From the NCBI RefSeq assembly GCF_011040385.1, contig NZ_JAAIKB010000001.1:1-64000 (forward strand): 64,000 bases of DNA. Reading direction: 5' to 3'. Under the pieces are notes generated by a model that was not told the origin of the DNA, ran no database searches, and was given only the letters and a program-made list of their open reading frames with translations. This stretch comes from Falsiroseomonas algicola (GTDB lineage Bacteria; Pseudomonadota; Alphaproteobacteria; Acetobacterales; Acetobacteraceae). Positions 55,015 through 62,971 of this stretch are shown piece after piece (position 1 is the stretch's first letter; each line of letters begins with the position of its first letter). A program made the position numbers and the translations under genes.

Positions 55015-55331
55015 GCTCCAATCTTCGGCCCCGTTCCTTCAATTCGTAGACAATATTCTTCCGTAAATGTGAAATTTTGATATTCAATCTTAAATTCAGT
55101 ATAGTGGTCAGCGGCGGTCAACCAACCCTCAGGCCGGATCCAAAGCTTTCCTTCATGCGTTAGGTGTGCTTCGGTTTCTATAACTCGAACTTTATCTCTA
55201 ATCGAGTAAAGTATTTTGCATCGAAATATAGCAATATTCTCGCCGAACCATTTAAGCGCGCCAAGTTTTTCCCAGTGCTGTCCGAAGTCGTAAACCGCCC
55301 GCCAGCGCGATCTAAACCTAGAGACGTTCAC
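54984..55331 (-). CDS. Low-GC hypothetical protein, 115 aa
   Basis: Starts at GTG 55331 behind a near-perfect ribosome site (AAGGAGGTG). Unusually rich in aromatic residues: WRAVYDFGQHWEKLGALKWF, ILYSIRDKV, WLTAADHYTEFKIEYQNF. No signal or membrane helix; not a family I know. About 45% GC against about 70% outside. Its 3' end overlaps the extended hydrolase gene by 31 bp. A structured element starts 48 bp upstream of its start codon. Confidence 0.6.
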   Translation of the reverse strand: MNVSRFRSRWRAVYDFGQHWEKLGALKWFGENIAIFRCKILYSIRDKVRVIETEAHLTHEGKLWIRPEGWLTAADHYTEFKIEYQNFTFTEEYCLRIEGTGPKIGAYWLELEPAT

Positions 55332-55719
55332 GCTACACCTCCTTGACCCTTGTGCGCCTGCAACTTGCGCGGCTATCGGAGACCGTTTGAGAATGCCGGC
55401 GGCTGAGGCTTCGCGAGGGATTTTGCGTGCTGGGAAGGCGCCGGGTGCGGCCGATGCTGGTTGCATCGGCAAGCCCGGCAACGCACCCAGCGCCGAAAAG
55501 CCCAGCGAAACCGACCCGCCGGTGTTCTCAAACGGTCTCTCAGCAGCGTATCGGTACTGCAGTTAGCACATATACTGAAATAGAACACCAAAGAACAAAT
55601 TGCTACGACAGTCATGGCAGAAATAATTTAGATCAGCGCAATTCTTGAGATGTAATTGGATTATCTTCCTACGCGCCGCCTTTTGCATCAAAGTTCAAGG
55701 CGAACGCGGACTCCCCCGC
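55332..55719. other. AT-rich islet with structured element, between two minus-strand genes
   Basis: The region contains the structured element 55379-55539 and a 180-bp stretch from 55540 of about 45% GC with no supported gene; the only plus-strand start there (ATG near 55614) reads five codons. The contrast in base composition with the element's GC-rich interior is sharp. Confidence 0.6.
55379..55539 (+). ncRNA. Putative structured RNA element, copy A
   Basis: 24-base arms 55379-55402 and 55516-55539 pair fully if two G-U pairs are allowed. Inside, CCGATGC/GCATCGG (55451-55469) makes a hairpin with loop TGGTT. Flanking helices are GCTGGG/CCCAGC (55429-55434 with 55501-55506), GGCGC/GCGCC and GGGTGCG/CGCACCC. 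GCGAAACCGACCCGCC (55505-55520) is shared with copy B, and its AACC can pair with the loop GGTT (pseudoknot). No gene follows on the plus strand; on the minus strand it lies 48 bp before the GTG at 55331. The strand is assigned by wobble pattern only. Confidence 0.55.
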
Positions 55720-57366
55720 CTACTTCTTCCCCGCGAACTCCGGCAGCCCCTTCAGGCTCTCCGTCGTGTCGAAGTCGCGCAGCACCGCGTCATTCGCCAT
55801 CTCCACATCGACCAGCCGGTCGGCATGCTTGCCCGCCAAATGCCGCGCGCCGACATCGCCGCTGATGGCCAGCATCTGCGGCAGGAATTCCCGGCTCCAC
55901 AGCATCGGGTTGCCCTGCTTGCCGCGATAGGTCGGCTGCACGATGGCGCGGCCTTCCTCCGGGTCGAAGGCGCTCAGCAGCCGGTCGAGCATCGCCGCCG
56001 TCACCAGCGGCATGTCGCCGAGGCACACCAGCACCCCCTCCGCATCCGGCGGCACCGCCGCCAGCCCGGCCTTGAGGCTGGCCGAAAGCCCCTCCGCATA
56101 GCCCTCCGCATGCGCGAAGAGCACCGGGCGCCCCGCCAGCGCCTCCTCGATCCGCTCCCGCTCATGCCCCGTCACGACGATGACGGGGGAGGCATGGGAG
56201 GCCAGCGCATTGTCCACGACGCGCAGGATCATCGGCAGGCCCTTGGTGTCCGGCACCAGCAGCTTGTTCAGCGGCGCCATGCGGCGCGAACGCCCGGCGG
56301 CGAGCACCAACGCGCAGACCTTGCGCGCGCGGCGCGGCGCGGTGGCCGGCGGCGGCACGCGGGGCGCATCGGCGCGGGGCAGGGGGCGCACCTCGATCTC
56401 CTTCAGCAATCCGCCGACGCCCATGCCCATCACGTCGCGCGCCGTCACGCGGCGCCCGGCGAAGATCCGGGCGAGCACCCAGTCGAAGCCGTTCAGCTTC
56501 GGGCTGCGCGCGCAGCCCGGCAGGACCAGCGCCGGCACCTCCCCGATCCGCCCGAGGCAGATCAGGTTCCCCGGATCGACCGGCATGCCGAAATGCTCGA
56601 TCACGCCGCCGGCGCGCACGATCGCCGCCGGCCCCACATCGCGCCGGTCCACCACGGCCGAGGCCCCGGCCACCAGGAGCAGATCGGCCCCCGCCTTGCG
56701 CAGCCGCGTCAGCGCATCGGCGACCGGCCCTTCCTCATGCCGGACGCGCTCCACCGGCAGCATGGTGCCCATCAGCGCCTTGATGCGCGCCTCGGTCGCC
56801 TCGACCGCGCCCTCCATCACGCTTTCCTTGATGCCCGGCAGTTCCGTCAGCACCAGGCCGACGGAGAGGGGCTGGAAGGGATGGATGGCGATGCCGGTGC
56901 GGCCGCGGGCCATCGCTTCCACCACCTGCAGCACACGGCCGGGGCTGGCGAAGGGGATGACCTTGATGGTGGCCAGCATCTCCTTCGCCGCCACCACGGA
57001 ATGGTTGGGCAGCGTCGCGACGGTGACGCTTTCGTCCACCGCATTGATGCGGTCGATCAGCCCGGCATCGACGGTGAAGAGACCCGCGCTTTCCGCGAAG
57101 AGGTTCACCCGCCCGGTGGCGGCGCGCGATTTCGCCACCAGCGGCGCCATCAGCGCATCCGCGACGCGGTCCGCCGCCTCATCCTCCGGCACGTCGCCGG
57201 CTTCCATGCGCGCGGCGATGACGTCGCGCCGCCCGGCTTCCCGCAGCGCGGCGATCGCGCCCTCATCCAGCACTGTGCCCTTCTTCAGCACGCGCCCGGT
57301 CAGGCGGACGGTATGAGCGAGGACGGCCCCCTTGGCTTCGTCCAGCGGCGTCGGCCCGAAGATCAT
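55720..57366 (-). CDS. MoeA-like molybdopterin-binding / MocA-like nucleotidyltransferase fusion
   Basis: 548 residues. An N-terminal and central MoCF_biosynth-like region (about 1-330, including LLLVAGASAVVDRRDVGPAAI) precedes a C-terminal NTP-transferase domain beginning ALVLAAGRSRRMAPLNKLL (about 352), with LVCLGDMPLV and GNPMLWSREFL. The C-terminal part matches MocA, which makes the cytidylylated molybdenum cofactor for xanthine-oxidase/CO-dehydrogenase-type enzymes. Last gene of the cox-type maturation run, overlapping the XdhC-like gene by ATGA. Confidence 0.9.
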   Translation of the reverse strand: MIFGPTPLDEAKGAVLAHTVRLTGRVLKKGTVLDEGAIAALREAGRRDVIAARMEAGDVPEDEAADRVADALMAPLVAKSRAATGRVNLFAESAGLFTVDAGLIDRINAVDESVTVATLPNHSVVAAKEMLATIKVIPFASPGRVLQVVEAMARGRTGIAIHPFQPLSVGLVLTELPGIKESVMEGAVEATEARIKALMGTMLPVERVRHEEGPVADALTRLRKAGADLLLVAGASAVVDRRDVGPAAIVRAGGVIEHFGMPVDPGNLICLGRIGEVPALVLPGCARSPKLNGFDWVLARIFAGRRVTARDVMGMGVGGLLKEIEVRPLPRADAPRVPPPATAPRRARKVCALVLAAGRSRRMAPLNKLLVPDTKGLPMILRVVDNALASHASPVIVVTGHERERIEEALAGRPVLFAHAEGYAEGLSASLKAGLAAVPPDAEGVLVCLGDMPLVTAAMLDRLLSAFDPEEGRAIVQPTYRGKQGNPMLWSREFLPQMLAISGDVGARHLAGKHADRLVDVEMANDAVLRDFDTTESLKGLPEFAGKK

Positions 57367-58061
57367 CCCTCAGCCCTTTTCTTCGGCCCGCCGCGGCGGG
57401 CGGAGACGATCTGCGCCAGGATGGAGACGGCGATCTCGGGCGCCGTCACCGCCCCGATATCCAGGCCGACCGGCGCCGCGATGCGCGCGATCTCGGCTTC
57501 CGTCAGCCCGGCTTCCGTAAGCCGCGCCACGCGCTTCGCATGCGTCTTCCGGCTGCCGAGCGACCCCACATAGAAGGCCGGGCTGCGCAGCGCCACTTCC
57601 AGCGCCGGGTCATCCAGCTTCGGGTCATGCGTCAGCGTCACGACGGCGGTGCGCGCATCCGGCTTCAGCGCGGCCATCGCCTCATCCGGCCAGTCGCCGG
57701 AGATGGTGACGCGGTCGCCCATCCGTTCCTCGGTCGCGAAGGCGCGGCGCGGGTCCACGACGTTCACCGCGAAACCGAGCGGCAGCGCCATCGGCACCAG
57801 CGCCTGCGCGATATGCACGGCGCCGACGATGATGAGGCGAAGCGGCGGGTTCTCCGGCGCGATGAACCAGGTCTCGTTGCCGATCGTCACGTTGCGCGCG
57901 GCATCCGCATCGATCGCGGCCCGGGCTTCCGCGGCCAGCGCCTCCGGCACCGCGTCCCCCGGCACCAGCAGCTGCGCGCCATCGGGCAGGCGCGTCAGCA
58001 GGGCGAGCGGCACCTTCGCCGCCCGCGCGGCCATCAGCCGGTCGAGGAGGTCACTCTTCAC
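57363..58061 (-). CDS. XdhC/CoxI family protein, Rossmann (C-terminal) part
   Basis: 232 residues: a C-terminal XdhC Rossmann domain with LRLIIVGAVHIAQALVPMA, VVDPRRAFATEERM and the conserved FYVGSLGSRKTHAKR motif. XdhC proteins handle sulfuration and insertion of the molybdenum cofactor. The N-terminal CoxI half is a separate upstream gene here. Coupled to both neighbours by ATGA. Confidence 0.9.
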   Translation of the reverse strand: MKSDLLDRLMAARAAKVPLALLTRLPDGAQLLVPGDAVPEALAAEARAAIDADAARNVTIGNETWFIAPENPPLRLIIVGAVHIAQALVPMALPLGFAVNVVDPRRAFATEERMGDRVTISGDWPDEAMAALKPDARTAVVTLTHDPKLDDPALEVALRSPAFYVGSLGSRKTHAKRVARLTEAGLTEAEIARIAAPVGLDIGAVTAPEIAVSILAQIVSARRGGPKKRAEG

Positions 58062-58399
58062 CCGAGGCGCTCCCCAAGGGGCTCAACGAAGACCTTCAGC
58101 TTGCCGCCGCAGGCCAGTCCCACTTCCCAGGCGCGTTCGTCGCTGATGCCGAAATCCAGCAGCTGCGGCACGCCCGTCTCCATCGTCTCGCGCGCGACCT
58201 CCGCCACCGCCCCCTCGATGCAGCCGCCGGAGACGCTGCCCGCGATGCGCCCGGACGCCGTCACCGCGAGCCGCGACCCGGCGGGGCGGGGGGAGGAGCC
58301 CCAGGTCTCCACGACCGTCGCGATGGCGACGCGCTCGCCCTCCGCCTTCCAGCCGGCGGCGGTGGCCAGGATATCCTCGGAATCGGTGGCGGCGCTCAT
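58058..58399 (-). CDS. XdhC/CoxI family protein, N-terminal part
   Basis: 113 residues corresponding to the XdhC_CoxI domain: ERVAIATVVETWGSSPRPAGSRLAVTASGRIAGSVSGGCIEGAV, with the conserved GGC. In many bacteria this is the first third of XdhC; here it is an independent gene upstream of the Rossmann part, as in some cox clusters (CoxF/CoxI). Overlaps both neighbours. Confidence 0.9.
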   Translation of the reverse strand: MSAATDSEDILATAAGWKAEGERVAIATVVETWGSSPRPAGSRLAVTASGRIAGSVSGGCIEGAVAEVARETMETGVPQLLDFGISDERAWEVGLACGGKLKVFVEPLGERLG

Positions 58400-59598
58400 G
58401 CGGCATTCCCCCTCTGGCCGGCGCGCGGGTCGCTGAGCACGGAGACCAGGTCGCGCAGGCTGGCGAGATTATGGACCGGGCGAAACTCGTCCACATGCGG
58501 AAGCATCGCCCGGATGCCCTGGGATTTGGGCTGGAAGCCGGCGTAACGCAACAGCGGGTTCAGCCAGATCAGCCGGCGGCAGGATTTGCGCAGCCGATCC
58601 GTCGCCTCCGCCAGGCCCTTGGCGCCCTCCCGGTCCAGCCCGTCCGTGATCAGCAGCACCACCGCGCCCTGGCCCAGCACGCGGCGCGACCAGGCCTTGT
58701 TGAAGCCCTCCAGCGATTCGCCGATCCGCGTGCCGCCCGACCAGTCCGGCACCGCATGGGCCACCATCTCGAAGGCCACCTCGGCATCCCGGTGCTTCAG
58801 CTGGCGCGTGACGTTGGTCAGCCGCGTGCCGAACAGGAAGGTGTGCACGCGGTCCCTGTCATTCGCCACCGCGTGCAGGAAATGCACCAGGATCTGCGCG
58901 TAGCGCGCCATGCTGCCGGAAATGTCGCAGAGCGCCACCAGCGGCGGCGGCCGCACCACGCGGCGGCGGCGCGAGATGTCCATGATCTCCCCGCCCGTCC
59001 TGAGGCCTTCCCGGATCGTGGCGCGGAGGTCGGTGTAGGGGCCCGCATGGTCGGGCCGGAACCGCCGCGTCGGCCGCGCATCCAGCGGCAGCACCAGCTT
59101 GCGGATCTCCTTCTTCGCGGCGTTCAGCTCGGCGGCCGACATCGCCTCGAAATCCATGGTCTGCAGGCGTTCGCGCTCGCTGACCGTGAAGGTCATGTCC
59201 ACGCGATCCTCGGGCGGCTGCTCCGGCGGCTTCGGCGGGTTGGGCCGGTCGCCCTGCATCGCCTCCGCCATGCGGCGCGACGCCGGCGATGGCTTGGGCT
59301 GCTCCTTCATCCCGTCCATCAGCGCCATGGCGGCGGCGTGCGCGCTGGCTTCCGGATCGCGCCAGAACAGGCTGAAGGCGTGGTCGAAGAGGAAGAAGTG
59401 CTCGTGCTTGTGGACCATCGTGGCCCGCAGCGCGGCATGGACCTGCGCCTTGTCCCCGATCTCGATCGCCTCCAGCGCCGCCGCGCCCGCCAGCAGCTCC
59501 GCGGGCCCCAGCGGCAGCCCGGCGCGGCGCAGCAGCCGCCCGAAGGCGACCAGGTTGTTGCCGATGGCAGCACCCCCCTCATGCGGGCGGAGCAGCAT
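58396..59598 (-). CDS. VWA-domain protein, CoxE type
   Basis: 400 residues. The N-terminal half is helical (FGRLLRRAGLPLGPAELLAGAAAL is the CoxE start pattern); the C-terminal von Willebrand A domain has MIDAS DISGS (about 222) and later Asp in LLITDGLD. CoxE works with the MoxR ATPase CoxD to mature the CO dehydrogenase active site. ATG 59598 follows AGGA; ATG 59619 is an alternative. Confidence 0.9.
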   Translation of the reverse strand: MLLRPHEGGAAIGNNLVAFGRLLRRAGLPLGPAELLAGAAALEAIEIGDKAQVHAALRATMVHKHEHFFLFDHAFSLFWRDPEASAHAAAMALMDGMKEQPKPSPASRRMAEAMQGDRPNPPKPPEQPPEDRVDMTFTVSERERLQTMDFEAMSAAELNAAKKEIRKLVLPLDARPTRRFRPDHAGPYTDLRATIREGLRTGGEIMDISRRRRVVRPPPLVALCDISGSMARYAQILVHFLHAVANDRDRVHTFLFGTRLTNVTRQLKHRDAEVAFEMVAHAVPDWSGGTRIGESLEGFNKAWSRRVLGQGAVVLLITDGLDREGAKGLAEATDRLRKSCRRLIWLNPLLRYAGFQPKSQGIRAMLPHVDEFRPVHNLASLRDLVSVLSDPRAGQRGNAA

Positions 59599-59638
59599 GG
59601 CGGTCCTGGGAGGGATCATCCGGCCGGGCCCGCCACCC

Positions 59639-60535
59639 TCAGCCCGCCGCCTGCTTCGCCTCGGTCACCAGCCGCGCCGCCTCCGCGCCGCGGATCTTGG
59701 CGATGTCGTCCTGGTATTTCAGCAGCGCGCCCAGCGTCTCATCCACCAGCGCCGGCTCCAGCTCCTTCGCATCCAGCGCGGAGAGTGCCGCCGCCCAGTC
59801 GATGGTCTCCGCCACCCCCGGCGGCTTGAAGGTATCGGCGCCGCGCACCGCCTGCACGAAGGCCACCACCTGCGCGGACAGCCTCTCCCCCACCTGCGGC
59901 GCCCGGATCTTCAGGATCGCGCGTTCCCGCGCCGCATCGGGGTAGTCCACCCAGTGGTAGAGGCAGCGCCGCCGGATCGCGTCATGCACCTCCCGCGTCC
60001 GGTTCGACGTGATCACCACCACCGGCGGCGTCGCCGCGCGCACCGTGCCGAGTTCCGGGATCGTCACCTGGAAATCCGCCAGGATCTCCAGCAGGAAGGC
60101 CTCGAAGGGCTCGTCGGCGCGGTCCAGCTCGTCGATCAGCAGCACCGCCGGCTCACCCTCCAGCGCCTGCAGCAGCGGCCGCGCCTGGAGGAAGCGGCGG
60201 TCATAGATCCCCCGCTCCAGGCTGCCCCGGTCCCCCGCCTCGCCGCTCGCTTCCGCGAGCCGGATCGCCATCAGCTGCCGCGCATGGTTCCACTCATAGG
60301 CCGCGGAGGCCAGGTCCATGCCGTCATAGCATTGCAGCCGCACCAGGCGGCGCGGCAGCTGGGCGGCCAGGACCTTGGCGATCTCCGTCTTGCCCGTGCC
60401 CGGCTCACCCTCGAGCATGATGGGCCGGCCCATCCGCAGCGCCAGGTGGATGGTGGTGGCCAGCTGGCGGTCGGCGACGTAGCCGCCCTCCGCCAGCAGG
60501 CGCTGCGTCGCGGCGACGTCGGCGGGGATGGTCAC
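59639..60535 (-). CDS. MoxR-family AAA+ ATPase, CoxD type
   Basis: 298 residues with Walker A GEPGTGKTE (about 42-50), Walker B AVLLIDELDRADEP, sensor 1 VVITSNRTREV and Arg finger region. CoxD-like MoxR ATPases unfold or remodel the cofactor site of CO dehydrogenase-type enzymes with CoxE. It lies between coxG- and coxE-like genes. Confidence 0.92.
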   Translation of the reverse strand: MTIPADVAATQRLLAEGGYVADRQLATTIHLALRMGRPIMLEGEPGTGKTEIAKVLAAQLPRRLVRLQCYDGMDLASAAYEWNHARQLMAIRLAEASGEAGDRGSLERGIYDRRFLQARPLLQALEGEPAVLLIDELDRADEPFEAFLLEILADFQVTIPELGTVRAATPPVVVITSNRTREVHDAIRRRCLYHWVDYPDAARERAILKIRAPQVGERLSAQVVAFVQAVRGADTFKPPGVAETIDWAAALSALDAKELEPALVDETLGALLKYQDDIAKIRGAEAARLVTEAKQAAG

Positions 60536-60537
60536 GC

Positions 60538-61236
60538 TCAGCCCACCAGGAAGATGAGCGCCAGGATGACGATCATCGCCGCGCCGCCGAACCAGACCTG
60601 GGCCGGGAAGCCCATGAAGTCCTGCGTCAGCAGGCGCAGCGGCAGCGGCATCTCGCCGGAGGTCGGGTTCGGCTTGTGCACCGGCCCGCCGGGGGACTGG
60701 CCCTCCGCCGCATGCTGCGTGATCGGCCCGGCTTCGGCCGAGCCCGCCAGGTATTCCGTATCCGTGCCCGCGACCGCCACCGGCTCCGGCGCCGCCGGCG
60801 CAAGCTGGGCGGCGAAGCGGTCGAAGAACTGGTCGGCCATGGACTTGGCCGTGCTGTCGATCAGCCGCGCGCCGAGCTGCGCCATCTTGCCGCCGACCTG
60901 CGCCTTCACGTTGTAGCGCAGCAGCGTCTCGCTGGGCCCGATCTCGTCCAGCGCCACGTCGGCGCCGCCCTTGGCGAAGCCCATGGCGCCGCCCGTGCCC
61001 TCACCGGAAATGGTGTAGGAGGCCGGCGGGTTGATGTTGGACAGCGTGACCTTGCCGCCGAACTTGGCGGACATCGGGCCGAGCTTCATGGACACCTTGG
61101 CCTGGAACTGGTCATCGCCGATCCGCTCCACGCTCTCGCAGCCGGGAATCGCTTCCTTCAGCACCGCGGGGTCGTTCAGTGCCGCCCAGACCGTTTCGCG
61201 GGGGGCGCCGATCCGGCGTTCGCCAGTCATTTCCAT
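60538..61236 (-). CDS. CoxG-like SRPBCC protein with C-terminal membrane anchor
   Basis: 232 residues. The SRPBCC/CoxG domain (about 1-148: MTGERRIGAPRETVWAALND, GPMSAKFGGKVTL and KAQVGGKMAQLGARLIDSTAK) is followed by a Pro/Ala linker and one C-terminal helix (about 215-231). CoxG anchors CO dehydrogenase to the membrane in Oligotropha. GGAG precedes the ATG at 61236. First gene of the run; the structured element copy B begins about 35-45 bp upstream. Confidence 0.92.
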   Translation of the reverse strand: MEMTGERRIGAPRETVWAALNDPAVLKEAIPGCESVERIGDDQFQAKVSMKLGPMSAKFGGKVTLSNINPPASYTISGEGTGGAMGFAKGGADVALDEIGPSETLLRYNVKAQVGGKMAQLGARLIDSTAKSMADQFFDRFAAQLAPAAPEPVAVAGTDTEYLAGSAEAGPITQHAAEGQSPGGPVHKPNPTSGEMPLPLRLLTQDFMGFPAQVWFGGAAMIVILALIFLVG

Positions 61237-61549
61237 GGGGATCACTCCGTCGGTTGCGGCCGAAATCGAGGACCGTTCGTGAATGCCGGCGGCCGGGGGC
61301 TCGCCAGGGGCCTTGCCGTCCCGGGGCATAGCGGGGCCCGCCGATGCCGGTTGCATCGCCAGGTCCGCCAGGGCGCCAGGGGCGGCGAGGGCCCCGCGAA
61401 ACCGACCCGCCAGTGTTCTCTCCCCGTGTCTTAAGGCCGCCGGGCGCGCCCGGGAAGGGCAGGGGGCACCGCGGACCGGCCCCGCGGACGGGATCGTGAC
61501 GCGCGCGCTGGTTGCCTGTATGCGCAGCGGAGGGGTCTGGGGAGACGAC
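61237..61549. other. Divergent region between coxG-like gene and antiporter gene
   Basis: 313 bp holding the structured element copy B (61271-61420), a 14-bp palindrome CCGGGCGCGCCCGG (61440-61453) and a CCGCGG/CCGCGG hairpin (61469-61487). The last two lie between the element and the antiporter start, where an expression platform would sit if the element acts in cis on that gene. No clear -35/-10 pair. Confidence 0.55.
61271..61420 (+). ncRNA. Putative structured RNA element, copy B
   Basis: It shares with copy A the blocks GACCGTT-YG-W-GAATGCCGGCGGC (61271-61293), CGATGC/GCATCG hairpin (61342-61358, loop CGGTT) and GCGAAACCGACCCGCC (61396-61411), then GTGTTCTC. The spacing between the first two blocks is exactly 47 bases in both copies. 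Its second helix (GCGGGGCCC/GGGCCCCGC, 61331-61339 with 61389-61397) has a different sequence from copy A but the same logic. The loop CGGTT is complementary to AACCG in the conserved block. The arms GAATGCCGGCGG/CCGCCAGTGTTC pair with one C-A mismatch. Confidence 0.55.
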
Positions 61550-62971
61550 ATGATGGGGACGCTGCGCGCGCGACGCGTCGTGACTGGGGCTGCCTGGGCC
61601 CTGCTGCCCGCGATGCTGGTGCCGATGCCGGCCCTGGCGGCCGGGGTATCGGGGGCGGAACTGTCGCTGGCCTGGGCCATTCCCTTCGTGGGCATCCTGC
61701 TTTCCATCGCGCTGATGCCGCTTTTCGCCGCCAGCCTCTGGCACCACCACTACGGCAAGATCGCCGCCATCTGGGCCGTGCTGTTCCTGCTGCCCTTCGC
61801 GGCCTTCTTCGGCCCAGGCGCCGCCTGGTACGAATTCACCCATGTCGCGGTGCTGGAATACATCCCCTTCATCGCCCTGCTCGCCGCGCTCTACACCGCG
61901 GGCGGTGGCGTCATGCTCAAGGGCTCCCTGGTCGGCACGCCCGGCACCAATGTCGCGCTGCTGGCCATCGGCACGGTCATGGCCAGCCTGATGGGCACCA
62001 CCGGCGCCGCCATGGTGATGATCCGCCCGGTGCTGCGCGCCAATGCCTTCCGCCGCAACAAGACCCACACCTTCGTCTTCTTCATCTTCCTGGTGGCCAA
62101 CATCGGCGGCAGCCTGACGCCCGTGGGCGATCCGCCGCTCTATCTCGGCTTCCTCCGTGGCGTGTCCTTCTTCTGGCCCACCACCCACATGTTCAGCGAA
62201 TTCCTGCTCTGCGCCGTGCTGCTGCTGGCGCTCTACTGGGTCTTCGACACCATCGCCTGGAACCGGGAGAAGCCCGTGGCCCCCGTCGCGGCGAAGGAAC
62301 CGCTTTCGATCGAGGGCTGGCTGAACGTCGCCCTGCTGGCCGCCATCGTCGCCGTCGTCATCGCCATGGGCTACGTCAAGCTCGGCGTCGTCCCCGTCCT
62401 CGGCCACCCGATGGAGGTGGAGAAGCTGGTCGGCATCGCCCTTTTCGCCGCCATCACCCTGATCTCCGTCTATGGCACCAGCCCCGCGCTGCGGGAGGCG
62501 AACGGCTTCGCCTGGGGCGCGATCCTGGAGGTCGCCAAGCTCTTCGCCGCCATCTTCATCACCATGGCCCCCGTCCTGGCCATCCTCCGCGCCGGCAGCG
62601 CGGGCGCGGCCGCGGGTCTGGTGGCGCTGACCTCGGATGCCAATGGCGTGCCGATCCCCTGGGTCTATTTCTGGCTGACCGGCGCGCTCTCCTCCTTCCT
62701 CGACAATGCGCCGACCTACATCGTCTTCTTCGAGCTCGCCGGCGGCGACCCCGCCTACCTGATGACGCAGGGCGCGCTGGTGCTGGCCGCCATCTCCTGC
62801 GGCGCAGTCTTCATGGGCGCCAACAGCTACATCGGCAACGCGCCCAACTTCATGGTGAAGGCCATCGTGGAGGAGAATGGGGAGCGCATGCCGAGCTTCT
62901 TCGGCTACTGCGCCTGGGCCGCCTGCATTCTGGTGCCGCTCTTCGTGCTGGTGACCTTCATCTTCTTCTGA
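61550..62971 (+). CDS. NhaD/CitMHS-type sodium:proton antiporter family protein
   Basis: 473 residues. A cleavable-looking N-terminal signal (residues 1-31, ending PALAAG) precedes about eleven helices. The family stretch SLMGTTGAAMVMIRPVLRAN and the NIGGSLTPVGDPPLYLGFL motif match the NhaD / ArsB-like ion-transporter superfamily; SFLDNAPTYIVFFELAGG and MGANSYIGNAPNFM form the second half. GGAG precedes ATG 61550; ATG 61553 is possible. The transported ion is unproven. Confidence 0.88.
   Translation: MMGTLRARRVVTGAAWALLPAMLVPMPALAAGVSGAELSLAWAIPFVGILLSIALMPLFAASLWHHHYGKIAAIWAVLFLLPFAAFFGPGAAWYEFTHVAVLEYIPFIALLAALYTAGGGVMLKGSLVGTPGTNVALLAIGTVMASLMGTTGAAMVMIRPVLRANAFRRNKTHTFVFFIFLVANIGGSLTPVGDPPLYLGFLRGVSFFWPTTHMFSEFLLCAVLLLALYWVFDTIAWNREKPVAPVAAKEPLSIEGWLNVALLAAIVAVVIAMGYVKLGVVPVLGHPMEVEKLVGIALFAAITLISVYGTSPALREANGFAWGAILEVAKLFAAIFITMAPVLAILRAGSAGAAAGLVALTSDANGVPIPWVYFWLTGALSSFLDNAPTYIVFFELAGGDPAYLMTQGALVLAAISCGAVFMGANSYIGNAPNFMVKAIVEENGERMPSFFGYCAWAACILVPLFVLVTFIFF

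Follow-up and report, generated by a model that had tools for sequence, protein, structure and literature searches.

A probable MITE-like mobile repeat with a conserved structured core in Falsiroseomonas algicola and other bacteria

Miniature inverted-repeat transposable elements (MITEs) of bacteria are usually viewed as remnants of one local insertion sequence (IS). In the excerpts of PMC2229807 and PMC10969869 that concern such families (Correia/NEMIS, ERIC, RUP, QMITE2), they are described as non-autonomous elements of less than 200 bp with terminal inverted repeats, short target duplications and a long stem-loop transcript. The window analyzed here, a 64,000-nt stretch of the 6.56-Mb genome of Falsiroseomonas algicola (contig NZ_JAAIKB010000001.1; G000:C11:1-64000), contains two copies, A and B, of a repeat of about 160 nt. 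These are probably copies of a small, non-autonomous, MITE-like element that is moved in trans and possesses a conserved structured core. Loci and genomes are referred to below by their L and G numbers.

The element resembles a MITE in being a short non-autonomous repeat with terminal inverted repeats, target duplications and empty sites. It differs from the MITE families, which were compared by description, in that its core is shared across phyla and covaries while its ends change, G-U pairs are in excess on one strand, and its targets are TNA or YTAR, often stop codons. Additionally, it is not AT-rich, which is a typical but not required trait of MITEs: the cores in its own genome are mostly 67–71% GC (range 64–81%), and those of an Oscillospiraceae genome are 45–56%. 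The repetitive extragenic palindromic sequences (REPs) and bacterial interspersed mosaic elements that are associated with REP-associated tyrosine transposases are likewise palindromic and dispersed. However, they measure 20–40 nt rather than 160 nt, and the present element lacks their GTAG or CGTC end tag, is flanked by target duplications and has ends like the repeats of DDE transposases. Among IS families, the ends CTAG followed by CAGGCTGCGGAA match an IS5-family IS of a congener, and one end of an IS1182-family element, GAGCCTGTCCGAGAA, resembles the ends of subfamily 1 (see below); unlike these, the element is too short for a transposase gene and contains none. No description of the element was found among the papers listed by searches of the open-licence PMC literature, which lacks many subscription papers; an occurrence of GGAAAAGACCCG in PMC4711790 is a PCR primer and was taken as chance.

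A repeat family with a common core and changing ends

Both copies and their conserved blocks lie where the initial annotation had placed them, and a direct-repeat search recovered the three shared blocks in register, 5890–5891 nt apart, with 76–83% identity. The terminal arms of the element had been overlooked. Because the outer 24 nt on each side of A are exactly complementary, A is a single hairpin from end to end.

A search of the genome with a 161-nt query, in which 40 of 85 first-look candidates were scored, gave at least 23 copies of the ~160-nt element. Seventeen, including A and B, belong to subfamily 1, whose ends are mostly GAGACCG or GTGACCG; the other six form subfamily 2, which has the same core and different ends (CTAG followed by CAGGCTGCGGAAGAACGGG). 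Nearly all 23 adopt one and the same single hairpin, internal loops included (L030 folds differently), and the CCGACCC of the right block is invariant in all 16 aligned cores. The right-hand block GAAACCGACCCGCC occurs at nine exact places in the genome and at five more with one mismatch; elements account for ten of these 14 loci, the four exceptions being L011–L014.

A few of the copies are atypical in outline. L029 (G000:C22:70210-70395) carries about 25 extra nt that form a second hairpin in the right arm. L027, L028 and L030 (G000:C2:69-222, C13:69-224 and C34:234-384) share a truncated end, GCATCAGTTTGAG or its complement, and a nearly identical flank of about 50 nt near the contig starts, as if cut by another repeat or by an assembly break.

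As the initial annotation had envisaged, covariance-model searches of the genome and of the Acetobacteraceae found further homologs, with strong covariation. A first model (R1) was built from the cores of 16 of the 23 copies. At an E-value limit of 0.001, and with only 17 candidates scored per genome, it found matches in 31 of 200 genomes of the family, the own genome among them, from 19 of 102 genera; in a sample of the class, with eight candidates scored per genome, eight of 385 genomes matched, again counting the own genome. A pattern of 24 fixed bases (GAGGGATTTTTNG, 50–80 nt, GGAAAAGACCCG) matched 98 stretches in a named species collection, where well under one chance match is expected in 257 Gb by a rough estimate assuming equal base frequencies. 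The titles, obtained for 80 of the 98, include Plastoroseomonas, Belnapia, Roseomonas, Aureimonas, Mesorhizobium liriopis and Acetobacter garciniae, as well as UBP9, two Verrucomicrobia metagenome-assembled genomes (MAGs), and Oscillospiraceae and Clostridia MAGs.

A broader model (R2) of 79 sequences, none of them titled Verrucomicrobia, Oscillospiraceae or Clostridia, matched five copies with such titles at 45–58 bits. In 13 whole genomes scanned with R2 at E up to 0.001, there were 38 matches in one Oscillospiraceae MAG and one in another, 46 in Aureimonas psammosilenae, 31 in a UBP9 MAG, and one and three in two Verrucomicrobia MAGs. Contamination may lie behind MAG labels; for the MAG with 38 matches it is unlikely, because the matches are spread over many contigs. 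With an E-value limit of 1e-4, matches were found in 24 of the 291 genomes in the class of that MAG, the MAG being one of them, and in 23 of 398 Pseudomonadota genomes, of which one is the own genome and 15 lie outside its class. Weak hits call for caution: of 12 loci inspected from these two scans, seven (L490–L493, L495, L499, L500) form one hairpin with arms beyond the core, and the other five (L494, L497, L498, L501, L502) are ambiguous. The structured core has been retained, with compensating substitutions, in Alphaproteobacteria, in genomes that bear the labels UBP9, Verrucomicrobia and Clostridia, and, by weaker matches, in other Pseudomonadota.

At L451, L482 and L483, in the Oscillospiraceae and UBP9 genomes, a copy adjoins or sits within the end of another copy, which amounts to clustering or nesting. 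Carriage as phage or plasmid cargo was considered and set aside: a distant blastn search with one 161-nt query, a narrow test, returned no plasmid or phage match, and one exact pattern, equally narrow, had no match in viral contigs.

Covariation and strand signature of the folded core

The core is conserved and covaries across phyla while the ends change. In the alignment of 79 cores (78 distinct), 92.2% of the cells pair and 33 of 34 pairs have changed on both sides; the covariation score is 0.505, as against 0.149 for shuffled and at most 0.097 for slid alignments. This alignment was fitted to the structure, so that its counts lean towards it. As a check, 18 copies with a Clostridia label were aligned with MAFFT and folded separately; the resulting core hairpin is comparable, and 16 of its 28 pairs have changed on both sides. 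A 145–146-nt segment of each copy was also folded and compared with 200 dinucleotide shuffles. Both strands of A are unusual, the + strand more so: it is 5.8 standard deviations better than its shuffles, none of the 200 being as stable, and the − strand is 4.3 standard deviations better.

The initial annotation had further suggested that the GGTT of the apical loop pairs with the AACC of the right block. This pairing does not hold, since both letter sets are present in only four of the 79 aligned relatives and the AACC is already engaged in the main stem.

The paired positions distinguish the two strands. In the core, G-U/U-G combinations number 226 as against 52 A-C/C-A (98 of 100 rows, two reverse-strand matches being dropped), or 27 pairs against six with one tie; with two wobble-rich pairs omitted, the counts are 150 and 52. 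By group (n = 41, several being single loci and some of these from one genome), 29 lean to G-U, four to A-C and eight tie. The core alignment was built with a structure model, which may introduce a slight bias to G-U; the outer arms were compared ungapped and with no structure model, and in the 119 of 133 copies in which at least 10 of the 14 positions pair, they show 113 G-U against 39 A-C. The p-values of such counts cannot be read literally because the cells share ancestry. Selection on double-stranded DNA only would give roughly equal G-U and A-C; therefore, selection appears to act on the folded + strand, probably in the form of RNA and otherwise as single-stranded DNA. The initial annotation had proposed selection on such a structure, and covariation together with the G-U excess strongly supports it.

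Long imperfect palindromes are known substrates of template-switch correction, and such correction during replication would keep the arms complementary and yield compensating changes without any selection on structure. That this accounts for the family is very improbable. Under such correction the conserved unpaired loops should have been lost, along with the U-G that is frequent at pair 34/167 (48 of 79 rows), and no excess of G-U over A-C should arise on one strand; conserved mismatches and wobbles are present even in the near-identical young copies L015 and L016. Moreover, conserved unpaired letters recur on both sides of the hairpin, and thus the arms are not simply copied from each other.

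Mobility, insertion sites and candidate transposases

The flanks of B (61000–61264 and 61431–61800) match genome G583 with 1 nt between them. At the same site, each of the 14 congeners examined has both flanks and a shorter spacer than the own genome, by 57 nt in L255 and by at least 136 nt in the other 13. No element was found there with R2 in these 14 congeners; the single weak match (11 bits) lies elsewhere in L253, and the spacer of L255, longer than that of the other congeners, has no element match. Fourteen of the 23 own sites, joined without the element, were searched in the genus; the other nine copies are L027, L028 and L030, in which one end is replaced by the common flank, and L021, L023, L024, L031, L035 and L036. 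Twelve of the 14 sites are uninterrupted in at least one relative. The junctions are clean at L015, L020 and L033 and good, with gaps nearby, at L026 and L037, and at all five the stop codon or its complement is present in the relative. The remaining junctions have small indels and no insert of ~160 nt; L029 matched on one side only, and at the L018 site G589 has a related copy with an altered right half.

The flanking duplications are of two types, TNA or CTAG/YTAR, and roughly half of the copies tested have them in exact form. In copies with GAG or GTG ends, the flanking 3-mers are identical in 20 of 41 (mean 6.5, maximum 15 in 2000 shuffles), and these 20 are among 24 copies with TNA on both sides. 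YTAR is present in both terminal zones of 45 of 135 copies, versus one of 657 controls. The initial annotation had raised a match to a known transposable element with ends at the blocks; none was found, but the element is itself transposable. Derivation from an IS200/IS605-type palindromic element was rejected, as the copies have target duplications; IS200/IS605-type derivatives are not known to leave any.

TNA and YTAR each hold a stop codon on one or the other strand, and most of the Alphaproteobacterial copies examined adjoin a gene-like stop codon. The stop codon of a gene-like open reading frame (ORF) falls within the 22-nt terminal zone on one or both sides in 61 of 87 copies (six of 93 were dropped for short flanks), compared to 89 of 6960 control zones (1.3%); in the Aureimonas, UBP9 and Mesorhizobium copies the proportion is 17 of 20. 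Such ends are equally divided between left (36) and right (36), and 71 of the 72 have the stop at the very edge of the element or immediately beyond it, not farther inside. A precedent for repeat ends that provide stop codons is given by the GTAG REPs, whose ends, in an excerpt of PMC3733652, often supply the flanking ORF with a TAG stop codon. Copies A and B are exceptions to this placement, both being upstream of ORFs.

The position near gene ends raises the question of a host cis-regulatory RNA or stabilizer of the 3′ untranslated region (a riboswitch, a hairpin at the mRNA end or an RNase III site) that has spread through its usefulness. Hairpins beside stop codons can indeed stabilize or destabilize mRNA in other families, according to excerpts of PMC5082802 and PMC10969869, and B is upstream of an ORF resembling, by eye, an NhaD-type transporter, as would suit the nhaA-I, nhaA-II and DUF1646 riboswitches to which the initial annotation had pointed. 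Nevertheless, such a role is improbable. The copies lie equally on both sides of genes (36/36) although the G-U signature is on one strand, B is missing from the spacer in 14 congeners, and 12 of the 14 own sites are empty in a relative. The riboswitch suggestion is unsupported because the insertion of B is lineage-specific and the family consists of dispersed mobile repeats.

With Rfam models, the only gathering-level matches in the window and in 13 loci of relatives are to tRNA and a group II intron, neither on the element, and at E up to 10 no nhaA-I, nhaA-II or DUF1646 match was obtained in 55300–61600. A riboswitch or other known non-coding RNA was therefore rejected, given this result and the absence of the element from the locus of B in 14 congeners. 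The initial annotation was right not to recognize the family, because no Rfam family matched; as an RNA-like family without an Rfam 15 match in these searches, it could be mistaken for riboswitches or small RNAs near gene ends. An intrinsic terminator was also discarded, as no T-run follows the hairpin in the flanks inspected by eye only, with no terminator scan. The group II intron match is to a domain (L340:231-310, − strand; 41.5 bits, gathering threshold 40) and lies about 90 nt from a Verrucomicrobia copy.

The two arms of a copy pair in 112 of 131 copies, versus 54 of 393 with shuffled partners, and their sequences differ between genomes. The commonest ends, by eye, are YTAR followed by GGCCCGTTAGACAAG in G036, GAGACTGTTTCATAAA in G011, CTAGGGCCTGTTAGGG in G138, CTAGGTCCAATCGACATTC in G072 and CTAGGCGCTGTTTGAAAA in the Oscillospiraceae genome. 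A survey of transposases covered 59 loci in ten genomes. In congener G095, L239 is a 1308-bp IS5-family IS (NCBIfam NF033581, above cut-off) with CTAGCAGGCTGCGGAAA, the end of subfamily 2, at both ends. The nearest to subfamily 1 is an IS1182-family element (L230 in congener G195; NF033551, above cut-off). Among the end types, an autonomous IS with matching ends is thus available for subfamily 2 alone, and a resemblance in 11 of 15 letters for subfamily 1. L240 was considered as an IS with ends of the G036 type and was not used because its end-like sequence points away from the transposase gene. The core sequence was not seen in the IS ends inspected, which were few and not compared systematically.

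Ordinary MITEs, that is, local deletion derivatives of IS elements in which the arms pair only as terminal inverted repeats and the core has no special role, would account for much of this: the ends, duplications and empty sites agree with bacterial MITEs as reviewed in PMC2229807, and the ends of subfamily 2 match the IS5-family element of the genus. That they account for the whole is unlikely. What the subfamilies and phyla have in common is the core and not the ends, which strains this explanation, and a shared core is not expected from independent deletion derivatives; the helices internal to the terminal repeats covary, and the G-U excess marks one strand. Since the ordinary MITE picture does not fit the cross-phylum covarying core, the changing ends and the marked strand, we infer that the element is mobilized in trans, that its copies survive at stop codons and that its propagation needs the folded strand.

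In a MITE-like element moved in trans, resident DDE transposases (IS5- or IS1182-like) would bind the arms as terminal inverted repeats. Insertions at TNA or YTAR targets would survive because genes are not broken there. The folded + strand, as RNA or extruded single-stranded DNA, may be needed for propagation of the element itself rather than for a neighboring gene, because the orientations relative to genes are equal while one strand has the G-U signature; this is the least certain step. A broader proposal is tentative: the family could represent a previously unnamed, cross-phylum class of mobile elements in which the folded strand is the inherited unit, the hairpin core, as RNA or single-stranded DNA, is needed for propagation, and the outer arms are interchangeable and tuned to the DDE transposase of the host. 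The family allows a test of whether DDE-transposon parasites rely on a folded nucleic acid, and of how elements reach near-harmless sites such as stop codons.

Several observations weigh against a mobile element with a selected + strand. The + strand of B (81% GC) is not exceptional in its folding energy (z −0.56; 57 of 200 shuffles as stable), and its − strand is (z −3.2; 0 of 200); the case for the + strand of B therefore rests on homology and covariation. The G-U excess in the arms, counted per genome, is found in nine genomes and reversed in two, with four ties, and the counts in the Oscillospiraceae genome are 9 to 9. After 22 of the 72 stop ends a gene-like frame continues in the same sense, so that cut genes or a following gene are possible, and the stop test alone does not distinguish genes that end naturally from genes that the insertion has truncated; three of these 22 (L015, L020, L033) are natural gene ends, as judged from relatives. 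Stop placement in the Oscillospiraceae genome is weak (5 of 20 with a looser gene test; control 3.6% per zone). Identical flanking 3-mers are lacking in 21 of the 41 copies with GAG or GTG ends, the flanks of A (TCG/TCA) are not an exact duplication, nor are those of B, and the joined site of A had no counterpart in a relative among the matches listed. Finally, a search of the own genome at up to two mismatches gave no autonomous IS with ends of subfamily 1 (two further single end-like sites, L061 and L063, lie outside this check), and the resemblance of L230 is between its left end, GAGCCTGTCCGAGAA, and GAGACCGTTTGAGAA, its other end not having been found. Taken as a whole, the interpretation given in the initial annotation is partly supported.

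Copies A and B and their surroundings

The features of the two copies are collected in Table 1. The own-genome consensus matches B at E 5e-23.

Table 1. Coordinates of copies A and B and their parts in the window
Feature	Position	Strand	Basis
Copy A, complete element, 161 nt, subfamily 1, ends GAGACCG...CGGTCTC	55379..55539	+	own-genome consensus: all 161 positions matched, 90%
A, left terminal arm, 24 nt, perfect complement of 55516-55539	55379..55402	+	sequence, fold
A, conserved core motif GCGAGGGATTTT, left strand	55413..55424	+	kept in relatives from several phyla
A, apical hairpin GCCGATGC-TGGTT-GCATCGGC	55450..55470	+	fold; covarying helix
A, conserved core motif GAAAAGCCC, right strand, pairing with GGGATTTT region	55495..55503	+	fold, covariation, relatives
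A, right block AGCGAAACCGACCCGCC	55504..55520	+	sequence
A, right terminal arm	55516..55539	+	sequence, fold
A, left flank TCG, possibly decayed target duplication; right flank 55540-55542 = TCA	55376..55378	.	
Copy B, diverged element	61269..61430 (start about)	+	own-genome consensus match; empty site in G583 lacks 61265-61430
B, apical hairpin CGATGC-CGGTT-GCATCG	61342..61358	+	sequence, fold
B, right block GCGAAACCGACCCGCC	61396..61411	+	sequence

Between the two copies, on the − strand (55720–61240), lies a gene cluster that we take, from its ORF sequences, to encode MobA-, XdhC-, VWA/CoxE-, AAA/CoxD- and CoxG-like proteins of molybdenum hydroxylase maturation.

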